Assembly: GCA_018222345.1 (NCBI GenBank)
Contig: JAAFAL010000006.1
Coordinates: 1 to 47,638 of the forward strand
DNA length: 47,638 bases
Origin: a bacterium
Lineage (GTDB): Bacteria > Pseudomonadota > Gammaproteobacteria > Nevskiales > OUC007
Direction: 5' to 3'
Under the pieces are notes generated by a model. That model worked only from the letters and a program-made list of their open reading frames with translations, was not told the origin of the DNA and did not search any database. Both the position numbers and the translations under genes were made by a program. How positions within the stretch are numbered: the stretch's first letter is position 1; each line of letters starts with the position of its first letter. This document shows, piece after piece, positions 40,629 through 44,639 of this stretch.

Positions 40629-41947
40629 TTCGCCTTGTCCTGATTTTGCTATTGGTCGGCGGCTTGGCGACTCCGGCGCTGGCGTATTTGCCGCCTGATC
40701 GCATTCTTGTGCTCGACAAGGGCACGCATAAATTGTTGCGCCAGGGCCAGGCGGTCAAGCGTGTTGCCGTGGGCGACCCCAGCGTCGCCGACGTCAATGT
40801 CATCAATCGCCGCGAGGTGCTCGTTACTGGCAAAACCCTCGGCGTCACCAGCCTGATTGTCTGGGACGCGGCCACCAACACGCCCAGTGAATACCGCATC
40901 ACCGTTCGCCCGGCGCAAGACCTGAGCAACCCGGCGCCACCGAATCCGGCGCTGGCCAATGCCCGCGTGCAACCCGGCAAGGCGGTGTCGGGCAGCGTCG
41001 ACAGCCTGGCTGCGGCGCGTGCTGCAAACGCCCAAGCCCAAGGTGGCGATGCGCCAGTGAACACGCTGCAGGTGAATGTCGATACCCAGGTCATGGCGGC
41101 AATCAAGATTGTCGAAGTCAATCGCACCACGCTGCAGCAGTACGGCTTCAACTTCATCAACAACACACTGAATACCACGGTGGTCGTATCGCCACCAGGT
41201 ACTTTGTCGTCGATCTCCAACTCTGGCGCAGGCGGGTTTGACTTGCAGTCGAGCAGCGGCTTCCGCGCTGTTCAGGATGCCTTCCAGTTGGCCGTGGGTG
41301 ATGCCTCGCAAAGCGTGCTGGGCGTGCTCAGCTTGCTGGAACGCCAGGGCCTGGCGCGCACGTTGGCCGAGCCCAGCCTGGTGGCCACCAGCGGCCAGTC
41401 GGCGAGCTTTTTGGCCGGTGGCGAGTTCCCTATCCCGGTGGTGCAGGGCAACAGCAACGCAGTATCGATTGAGTTCAAGGAATTCGGCGTGCGCCTGAAC
41501 ATGACCCCCACCGTGCTCGACGCCGACCGCATTGTCATCAAGGTGGCGCCGGAGGTCAGCGAGTTGGACTTCACTACCGGCGTACAAAGCGGTGGCGTGT
41601 CGGTGCCTAGCCTTATCGTCCGGCGCACCGATACGACCGTGGAGTTGGGCGACGGCGAGAGTTTTGTCATCAGCGGCCTGATCAACGACCAACTCACCAG
41701 CAATGTCAGCAAAGTGCCGTTCTTGGGCGACCTGCCTTACATCGGAGCGTTTTTCCGCAGCAGCCGCTACTCGCGCGCCGAGCGCGAATTGATCATGGTG
41801 GTTACGCCGCGCATCGTTCGGCCATTTGCCGCCGGTGCCGATTTGCCGCCGTTGCCCGGCGCGCAGTACGACGACTACCGCCCCGATTTCGACGACACCA
41901 TGTTCCTCGAAACCGGCGACTTTGACGCCACCGGGTTCTCCGACTAA
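40625..41947 (+). CDS. cpaC: Flp pilus secretin CpaC/RcpA
   Basis: The outer-membrane secretin channel of the Tad system, 440 residues. A signal peptide (cut after TPALA, residue about 20) precedes the pilus-secretin N-terminal domain (ILVLDKGTHKLLRQGQAVKR to GVTSLIVWD), and the C-terminal secretin domain includes LLERQGLARTLAEPSLVATS, FLAGGEFPIPV and LPYIGAFFRSSRYSRAEREL. No BON domain is evident. It overlaps cpaB and cpaE by a few bases. Confidence 0.95.
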   Translation: MIRLVLILLLVGGLATPALAYLPPDRILVLDKGTHKLLRQGQAVKRVAVGDPSVADVNVINRREVLVTGKTLGVTSLIVWDAATNTPSEYRITVRPAQDLSNPAPPNPALANARVQPGKAVSGSVDSLAAARAANAQAQGGDAPVNTLQVNVDTQVMAAIKIVEVNRTTLQQYGFNFINNTLNTTVVVSPPGTLSSISNSGAGGFDLQSSSGFRAVQDAFQLAVGDASQSVLGVLSLLERQGLARTLAEPSLVATSGQSASFLAGGEFPIPVVQGNSNAVSIEFKEFGVRLNMTPTVLDADRIVIKVAPEVSELDFTTGVQSGGVSVPSLIVRRTDTTVELGDGESFVISGLINDQLTSNVSKVPFLGDLPYIGAFFRSSRYSRAERELIMVVTPRIVRPFAAGADLPPLPGAQYDDYRPDFDDTMFLETGDFDATGFSD

Positions 41948-43140
41948 TGGCCGCTGCAGACCGCGCACTCAAGTCCATGGCCCTGGTCGTCGCCAACGAC
42001 CCGCGCTATTCGCATTGGCTGGTGCAATGCCTGGGCCACGATATCGAGGTGCATTTGGTGCGTGCCACCAGTGGCCTGCCGGATATTGCCGGCGCCAGCC
42101 TGGCGTTTGTCGAAATTGAAGACGACCGCCCGGAACTGGGCGCGCAAATGATTGACCAACTGCTCGACCGCAATCCGGACCTGCCGGTGTTCGCTGTCGG
42201 CAACAGCGGGGCATCGCAGTCGGTGCTGGCGGCAGTGCGGGCCGGCGCAAAGGACTATTTTGTCCGCGAAGAAGACGACGAAAATCTGTCGGCGCGTGTG
42301 AGCAAGGTGTTGCGGCGCATCACTACCAACGCACCGGGCCGCAATCATGCGTCGCAAGGGCAGTTGATTACCTTGATGACGGCGCAAAGCAATTTGCGCA
42401 ACGCCTTTGTCGGCGGTCATCTGGCATTGGCGATCGACGAGAACCTGCCGCCGAACGAGCATGTGTTGCTCATCGATGTCGGCACGCCAACCGGCTGCTC
42501 ACTGGTGTATTTCAACGTCAATCAAAGCTACAACCTGCTTGACGGCTTGAATGATGTTTATCGCTGCGATCAAACGCTGATCGACACCGCGTTTGCGCGG
42601 CACAGCAGTGGCCTGTTCGTGCTCAGCTTGCCGGAAGACAGCCTGGGGTTCCCGGCGCTGGACGACAGCGACCTGATGACGCTGGTGGAGACTCTGCGCA
42701 ACTACTTCGCCGCCATCGTCATCAGTGTGGATGGCCATTTGCCGATGAATACGATCGGCGGCTTGATCAGCCATTCGACGCGCTCACTGCTGGTGACGGA
42801 CCAGTCCATCTTGCGCAGCCGCCACAACAAGCACTTGCTCAAAAAGCTGCGGCTCGACGATGTGCCGTTGGACCGCACTGGCCTGGTGGTTGATTGCTAC
42901 CGCAAGCGCGTCGGGCTGGAGCCTGACAACCTCGCCGAATTGCTCAACTTGCCAGTGTTCGCCACTTTGGGCGGCCAGCACGTGCAGCAGATTCACGCCA
43001 TGAACGCGGGCGAATCGATGTTCTCGTTGGCCCCGCGCGATGCATTTTGCGGCGAGGTTCGGGCCTTGGCGGGCAGCCTCGTCAAAGGCGAGTCGTTGCG
43101 CCCGCAGCAGCAGGGCTTCTTCGCTCGGCTGCTGGGTTAG
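41947..43140 (+). CDS. cpaE: CpaE/TadZ-like pilus localisation ATPase, degenerate P-loop
   Basis: The 397-residue product has an N-terminal receiver-like domain (about 10-125, VANDPRYSHWLVQCLGHDIE) and a C-terminal MinD/ParA-like domain. TadZ/CpaE proteins place the Tad machinery at the pole. The P-loop position reads LMTAQSNLRNAF (residues 144-155) in place of the usual KGGxGxT/S, so no Walker A lysine is seen and ATP binding is doubtful. The rest of the fold is recognisable (VLLIDVGTPTGCSLVYFNV, NTIGGLISHSTRSLLVTDQS). The TAG stop overlaps the first base of an inserted element; before insertion the stop was probably TAA. Confidence 0.88.
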   Translation: MAAADRALKSMALVVANDPRYSHWLVQCLGHDIEVHLVRATSGLPDIAGASLAFVEIEDDRPELGAQMIDQLLDRNPDLPVFAVGNSGASQSVLAAVRAGAKDYFVREEDDENLSARVSKVLRRITTNAPGRNHASQGQLITLMTAQSNLRNAFVGGHLALAIDENLPPNEHVLLIDVGTPTGCSLVYFNVNQSYNLLDGLNDVYRCDQTLIDTAFARHSSGLFVLSLPEDSLGFPALDDSDLMTLVETLRNYFAAIVISVDGHLPMNTIGGLISHSTRSLLVTDQSILRSRHNKHLLKKLRLDDVPLDRTGLVVDCYRKRVGLEPDNLAELLNLPVFATLGGQHVQQIHAMNAGESMFSLAPRDAFCGEVRALAGSLVKGESLRPQQQGFFARLLG

Positions 43141-43411
43141 GGAAGTTCTGATCGAATCGCGCGGCCGCGCCGGAGACCTTTCTGGCTCGCGCGCAAGGCA
43201 AATGGAGAGACATGTGGTGATTCCCCATAAACGACATTTAACGCAGCGAGCGGGCCAGAAAGGCCCGGCCCCAACGGGGTTCGGCCCGAAAAGCCCCGCT
43301 GACTGCGTTGGCCGTCTTGGCCGCAGAATGACTGCGACACTGCGCCAGCCGCCTTGCAGCGATGCTTTTCGGGACTCGAACGCGACTCGCGCGATTCGAC
43401 CAGAGCTTCCC
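43140..43411. mobile_element. MITE-like insertion, 272 bp, with 24-bp terminal inverted repeats
   Basis: The left end GGGAAGTTCTGATCGAATCG and the reverse complement of the right end GGGAAGCTCTGGTCGAATCG match at 22 of 24 positions over the full repeat (43140-43163 and 43388-43411). TA flanks both ends (43138-43139, 43412-43413) as a probable target duplication. The interior is GC-rich and full of short hairpins and holds no convincing gene. Removing the element and one TA leaves GGT-TAA followed 9 bp later by the cpaF ATG, a tight junction like the rest of this operon. The ends resemble IS5-type elements, but the parent IS is not in the window. Confidence 0.85.
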
Positions 43412-43424
43412 TAAGGGCGCTCGC

Positions 43425-44639
43425 ATGAGCCCATCGGACGACATCAAGTTCCGGCTATCGGACCAGTACCAGTCGCTCAAGACTAGTATCCACCGTCGGC
43501 TTATCGAGTTGATCGACGAGCGCAACATCAATGTTGATGAGTGGACAGCGCAGCGCATCCAGGAATTTTGCGCCGACCAGGTGCGTCGCTACGTGCTCGA
43601 CCACAAGCTTGCGGTCAACCAGCACGAGGTCGATATGCTGGCCGCCGATGCTCACCATGAATTGGTGGGTTATGGGCCAATTCAAAGCTTGGTCGAGCAA
43701 GACGACATCGACGATATTGTCGTCAACGGCCCGTCGAACGTATTCATCGAGCGCAAGGGCAAGTTGTCGAAAGCCGACGTGCGTTTTGTCGATGACGCCC
43801 ATGTGGTGCGCGTGATCCAGCGAATTCTGGCGCCGATCGGTCGGCGGGTCGATGAGTCGTCGCCCATGGTCGATGCGCGACTGCCCGACGGCTCACGGGT
43901 CAATGCCATCGTGCCGCCCATTGCGCTCGACGGCCCATGTATTTCCATCCGCAAGTTTCGCCGCAATCCGCTTACCGAGCGCGACCTGCTGGAATACGGC
44001 ACCGTGTCCGAGTTGGAGCTGGCTTACCTGCAAAAACGCGTGCAGCAGCGCGCCAATCTGATTGTTGTGGGGGGTACCGGCTCCGGCAAGACGACCTTCC
44101 TCAATCTGCTATCGCAATGGATCGGCAAGCAGGAGCGCATCATCACCGTGGAAGACGCCGCCGAACTGCGGCTGAGCCACGACCACACCGTGCGCCTGGA
44201 AACCCGGCCGCCCAATCTGGAAGGCGAACGCGCCGTCACCGCGCGTGACCTCGTGCGCAACGCGCTGCGCATGCGGCCCGACCGCATCATCGTTGGCGAG
44301 GTGCGCGGCGATGAGGTGCTGGACATGTTGCAGGCCATGAATACTGGCCACGACGGTTCCATGACCACCATCCATGCCAATGGCTGCGGCGATGCACTGG
44401 CGCGCTTGGAGCTGCTGGCCGGCTTTGCCGGTTTTGGCGGCTCCGAGGTGACGCTGCGCCAGCAGATTGTCAGCGCGGTTGACCTGATGGTGCACGTCAC
44501 ACGCATGCCCAGCGGCGAGCGGCGGCTGATGTCGGTCACCGAAGTTGGCCGGATTGTCGGTGGCGAGATCGAATTGACCGACCTGTTCCGCTACGACATC
44601 GAGGCGCAGCAACACCAAGATTTGCGCGAGGCGGCCTGA
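43425..44639 (+). CDS. cpaF: Tad secretion ATPase CpaF/TadA
   Basis: The 404-residue type II/IV secretion ATPase powers Flp pilus assembly. It has an N-terminal helical domain, the all-alpha/beta NTD (VGYGPIQSLVEQDDIDDIVV, residues 81-100), Walker A VVGGTGSGKTTFLNLL (about 214-229), an Asp box and Walker B RPDRIIVGEVRGDEVLDMLQ, and the His box MTTIHAN. The ATG at 43425 has a weak AAGGG site; upstream in-frame codons lie inside the inserted element. It overlaps tadB by one base. Expression may be altered by the 272-bp insertion just upstream. Confidence 0.96.
   Translation: MSPSDDIKFRLSDQYQSLKTSIHRRLIELIDERNINVDEWTAQRIQEFCADQVRRYVLDHKLAVNQHEVDMLAADAHHELVGYGPIQSLVEQDDIDDIVVNGPSNVFIERKGKLSKADVRFVDDAHVVRVIQRILAPIGRRVDESSPMVDARLPDGSRVNAIVPPIALDGPCISIRKFRRNPLTERDLLEYGTVSELELAYLQKRVQQRANLIVVGGTGSGKTTFLNLLSQWIGKQERIITVEDAAELRLSHDHTVRLETRPPNLEGERAVTARDLVRNALRMRPDRIIVGEVRGDEVLDMLQAMNTGHDGSMTTIHANGCGDALARLELLAGFAGFGGSEVTLRQQIVSAVDLMVHVTRMPSGERRLMSVTEVGRIVGGEIELTDLFRYDIEAQQHQDLREAA

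Follow-up and report, generated by a model that had tools for sequence, protein, structure and literature searches.

An IS5-type MITE with an inverted pair of hairpin cores at the stop codon of cpaE

Among described repeats, the REPINs are the closest published parallel to the doublet of hairpin cores reported here. They consist of two inverted REP sequences that form a hairpin, they are linked to RAYT transposases, and compensatory changes in the hairpin have been reported (PMC3116915). Our element, too, is extragenic, consists of a hairpin unit doubled in inverted orientation and shows compensatory changes, but its units measure about 105 nt whereas REPs are short, and its IS5-type ends and duplicated YTAR target indicate a DDE transposase rather than a RAYT. 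Like the IS5-family MITEs, it has the terminal inverted repeats of an autonomous IS5-family element, uses YTAR as its target, lacks coding capacity and is present in many copies. Unlike these, it has a body composed of a conserved inverted pair of ca. 105-nt cores, which also occurs with other outer repeats and is not merely shortened IS DNA.

Other small repeats are more distant. Chunjie of Geobacter uraniireducens, as described in a review, is also a MITE, with a length of 235 bp (PMC10969869). The Caulobacter CIR repeats, again compared by description, resemble the element in that their RNA is drawn as two long arms with a linker, but their likeness to MITEs is described as partial and they carry a GANTC motif (PMC2229807). 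The Correia/NEMIS and ERIC sequences are similarly small and intergenic; they have TA ends, and their stable RNA folds influence the mRNAs nearby. Their ends and sizes are unlike those of the present element, and the mRNA effect was described for those repeats (PMC2229807).

The element between cpaE and cpaF

The window, i.e. the whole stretch of 47,638 nucleotides that was analysed, carries between cpaE and cpaF an element proper of 270 bp with the sequence GGAAG...CTTCC. The locus is composed as follows, with the basis of each assignment in brackets.

41947-43140, plus strand: cpaE/TadZ-like gene, 397 aa, with its TAG stop (43138-43140) inside the left target copy (ORF table)
43137-43140, no strand: left YTAR target copy, TTAG (target-duplication statistics of related elements)
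43141-43410, plus strand: IS5-type MITE, 270 bp (ends of the same type as those of a full IS5-family element)
43141-43163, plus strand: left terminal inverted repeat (arm comparison, TIR pattern scan)
43165-43269, minus strand: left hairpin core (covariance model of the right core, 55 bits; L001:1528-1632, minus)
43279-43385, plus strand: right hairpin core, motifs CTGCGTT ... CTTG ... CTGCG ... CGCCTTG (covariance model)
43388-43410, minus strand: right terminal inverted repeat (arm comparison, TIR pattern scan)
43411-43414, no strand: right YTAR target copy, CTAA (same as the G001 empty site)
43425-44639, plus strand: cpaF, Tad pilus ATPase, PF00437 (ORF table, Pfam)

The inverted arms (43137-43163 and 43388-43414) measure 27 nt each with the target bases counted in, and 25 of these are complementary. 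When up to 3 mismatches are allowed, the window has two occurrences of the TIR pattern, against 0.02 expected. The consensus end GGAAGCTCTGATTGAATC was found nowhere in the window outside the element's own two ends, each of which is 2 positions off this 18-bp IS end. According to the ORF table the element has no transposase gene and, being short (270 bp) and multicopy, it has the properties of a MITE. The original prediction of a MITE at this position is borne out by the inverted ends, the 12 copies and the empty site described below; its dimensions (272 bp, 24-bp ends with 22 matches) are replaced by 270 bp and 27-nt arms with 25 matches.

The cpaE gene has matches, some of them weak, in the genomes of 55 of 61 relatives. 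Its product gave no Pfam match, and the name cpaE/TadZ-like derives from homology and position. The reading frame of cpaF stays open upstream as far as an ATG within the element (43362), so that an N-terminal extension of 21 residues is conceivable (43362-43424).

The genome to which the window belongs (220 contigs, 3.0 Mb) contains 12 near-complete copies including the one in the window, together with fragments at contig ends. The 11 other near-complete copies, for which a search had been proposed, are 78-85% identical to the window copy, occur in both orientations and adjoin unrelated genes, for example secF. A division into two sequence subfamilies was rejected as an orientation artefact; all copies belong to one family that was inserted both ways. 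At the edges of two copies (L003, left edge around 1497-1503, and L004, right edge around 1774-1780) the pattern suggests a change from TAG to CAG after insertion, and the neighbouring gene would now end inside the element.

Target site, stop codons and parent insertion sequence

An empty site, which had been proposed as a check, is present in G001, a genome of a sister genus in the same family, in the arrangement cpaE-TAA-GGGCTCTC-ATG-cpaF. With one target copy kept (in brackets), the window reads GGG[CTAA]GGGCGCTCGCATGAG and G001 reads CAG[CTAA]GGGCTCTCATGAG. Removal of the element from the window leaves CTAA GGGCGCTCGC ATG, so that the expected return to a TAA stop agrees with G001, while the distance from stop to start is 10 nt and not the 9 bp proposed earlier. 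In G002 and G003, cpaE ends with TGA and the element is absent.

The target was defined with related elements. Scanning for the 18-bp end GGAAGCTCTGATTGAATC gave many loci, mostly elements of about 160 bp in two Lysobacterales MAGs. An exact 4-bp flank repeat was found in 70 of 134 such elements as compared to 14 after shuffling, with YTAR as the consensus. A TA-only target of the IS630 type was rejected on these statistics, and the TA flanks of the original prediction give way to 4-bp copies, TTAG and CTAA. These two flanks differ from each other and share only the TA core, and both conform to YTAR; if the target was CTAA, both changes to TTAG are silent in cpaE (GGC to GGT and TAA to TAG).

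Insertion at a stop codon is real and happened more than once. A second copy is located at the secF stop, with empty sites in G001 and G002; secF has the same last residue in G001-G003, and its stop forms a YTAR sequence in G001 and G002 (TTAG, CTAG). The proposed insertion into the stop codon and the ancestral TAA were correct, but the survival of a functional stop as TAG is not luck: the cpaE stop was kept and the gene left intact because YTAR contains TAA or TAG and is duplicated. By gene calls from a simple script, stop codons are used by 5 of the 12 copies in this genome (23% of sampled non-coding YTAR sites are stops) and by 28 of 114 elements in the Lysobacterales MAGs (79 of 504 sites, 16%). 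These numbers represent a slight excess at most, and a special preference for stop codons was rejected. Stop-codon insertions thus reflect survivorship at about the frequency that the target predicts, and the cpaE insertion shows clearly why IS5-type elements can sit harmlessly in stop codons: the target spells the stop. In G003 a lone end, GGAAGCACTGATTGAATC, directly follows a TAG stop (L217, around 1518); a second end was not noticed there.

The IS5-like parent that had been suggested is supported by another genome. In MAG BWSM_30 the end GGAAGCTCTGATTGAATC lies just before the IS5-family transposase gene P0001 (NF033581, 329 bits), and contig ends of this MAG show both ends of that IS, with the 18-bp end identical. 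Relatives carry IS5-family elements whose ends are of this type as well. The window's own assembly contains neither a PF01609 (DDE_Tnp_1) protein nor a homologue of the BWSM_30 transposase. Other candidates for the parent were rejected: an apparent 1338-bp element in L106 consists of two ends around a DnaJ-like gene, and the transposase matches in L235-L240 have no matching pair of ends.

The two Lysobacterales MAGs (WGBZ01 and JALWKC01; L102-L216) harbor well over 100 elements of 157-162 bp in two subfamilies, several of them in tandem about 4 bp apart. Genus g7 of another family has elements that are built to the same plan and use the same target, mostly about 273-287 bp long. Minimal palindromes of 27 nt, GGAAGCTCTGATTGAATCAGAGCTTCC or close to it, were observed at YTAR-like sites, with two ends joined and nothing between them (L201, around 813-839; L176, around 258-284; L119, around 2282-2308); their hosts are Thiomicrorhabdus, Halothiobacillus and another gammaproteobacterium.

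In the mechanism we propose, a non-autonomous IS5-type element inserted into the CTAA with which cpaE ends. The inverted ends (GGAAGCTCTGATTGAATC) would be recognised in trans by an IS5-group transposase, one that is not found in the element's own assembly, and this enzyme would duplicate the 4-bp YTAR target. The stop codon is thereby doubled, so that cpaE remains intact, and the sequence in front of the cpaF ATG is untouched. The body is an inverted pair of hairpin cores with stems co-evolving as Watson-Crick pairs, and the effect on the operon would probably be limited to loss of the close translational coupling between cpaE and cpaF. With the copies, the ends, the target, the empty site and an IS with the same ends at hand, we consider insertion of an IS5-type MITE with such a body at the cpaE end very probably correct. 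Against it count the unequal target copies at this site, the failure to find a matching transposase in the assembly and the mostly single, uncompensated changes of the 160-bp relatives. The insertion itself is ordinary biology; the hairpin core is the part worth following.

Fold and covariation of the body

The consensus fold of the 12 copies has 103 pairs, of which 31 show compensated double changes. In a set of 25 elements, pairing was called on both strands for 82 pairs, whose cells comprise 1926 Watson-Crick, 33 G.U and 52 A.C. Changes of both bases that retain Watson-Crick pairing were counted in 315 cells as compared to 106 expected under independent arms. In the stems of 19 tRNAs the ratio Watson-Crick:G.U:A.C is 383:21:0, the zero being partly built in by the ARAGORN-drawn brackets. 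For the elements the fair comparison is that of G.U with A.C, which are alike, because requiring a call on both strands in itself depletes fixed G.U pairs. The absent strand bias is compatible with DNA, or with RNA made from either strand.

As the most likely reason for this pattern we tentatively suggest that a protein binds the folded single-stranded form at the conserved internal loops, which would aid movement or persistence of the element; we take this possibility seriously without regarding it as probable. The hairpins could instead act as RNA that is co-transcribed and processed, for example by RNase III, or that stabilises mRNA, making the element a post-transcriptional regulator of cpaE and cpaF. 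The very stable fold (-158 kcal/mol, z -10.3), the conserved internal-loop motifs and the precedents of Correia/NEMIS and ERIC (PMC2229807) speak for this, but the stems avoid G.U as much as A.C, unlike tRNA stems, and with both orientations among the copies no single RNA strand is preserved. The core also lacks an Rfam family: neither the window junction region nor any of 12 loci that carry the core or related elements gave a match at gathering score. A role as RNA is in our judgement unlikely. Somewhat doubtful, too, is that the covariation is a mutational by-product, in which template switching in quasi-palindromes copies changes from arm to arm and preserves pairing without function. Such copying would account for Watson-Crick pairing without strand bias, and private double changes do exist in the window's own genome (26 double vs 32 single). 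Yet the conserved internal-loop mismatches were left uncorrected, and in the less diverged 160-bp relatives most changes are single and uncompensated (subfamily A: 305 single, 45 double, 25 expected). The covariation signal of the 160-bp families is weak because few variable pairs are common to both strands.

The original prediction went further in proposing that the element may alter or switch the pilus. The insertion increased the cpaE-cpaF spacing from 10 to 284 nt, so that cpaF is set apart from the genes before it although the rest of the operon is closely packed, and reduced coupling of the two genes is plausible from this arrangement. However, cpaF retains AAGGG in front of its ATG. No promoter-like or terminator-like match was found in the element or at the junction, nor does the junction contain an intrinsic terminator (a GC-rich hairpin with a T run). 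The single genome of the species gives no sign of inversion, excision or polymorphism, and 11 similar copies are located elsewhere, beside unrelated genes such as secF. We consider a regulatory switch highly improbable.

The hairpin core in other genomes

A covariance model, R1, was built from the right hairpin of the element. The same model fits 43165-43269 on the minus strand and 43279-43385 on the plus strand, so that the element is an inverted doublet; for the left core, direct alignment also scores above shuffles. At several other loci the same minus/plus pair of cores occurs, with 7-25 bp between them. Of 274 Gammaproteobacteria genomes, 40 gave a match to R1, several of them reaching the scoring limit of 14 or more matches; at a stricter limit the core was found in 15 of 299 genomes of the phylum, where matches outside the class are called by model score alone. 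The covariation score over 50 core matches was 0.736, as compared to 0.178 for shuffled and at most 0.113 for sliding controls, in an alignment that was fitted to the model and leans towards it and in which a few rows are the reverse strand of a counted core. The stems vary freely, while GCGTT, CTTG, CTGCG and CGCCTTG are kept and the internal-loop mismatches are conserved. The core has no name in the open literature searched, nor did the sequences of the ends and the core turn up anything relevant in full texts.

The core is widespread and joined to outer repeats of several kinds; it has no Rfam family, and it covaries strongly but lacks the G.U signature typical of RNA. It may be that the ca. 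105-nt core, with its CTGCG against CTTG loop motifs and free stems, is a mobile module of Gammaproteobacteria and beyond, which occurs as an inverted doublet, was repeatedly joined to different IS ends and is recognised by some protein as folded single-stranded DNA; we consider this broader proposal speculative and hold it with some doubt. Should recognition of the core as folded DNA prove true, many intergenic repeats of these bacteria would have a common explanation and the binding protein could be sought. IS5-type outer repeats as in the window surround the core at L294, L305, L306 and L307, whereas CTAGTACTCTTTCAAG does so at L293 and GTGTAGTGCGTCACTCTTGG at L298. Across L293-L310, which are from different genera, one hairpin core is bordered by three or more types of outer inverted repeat.
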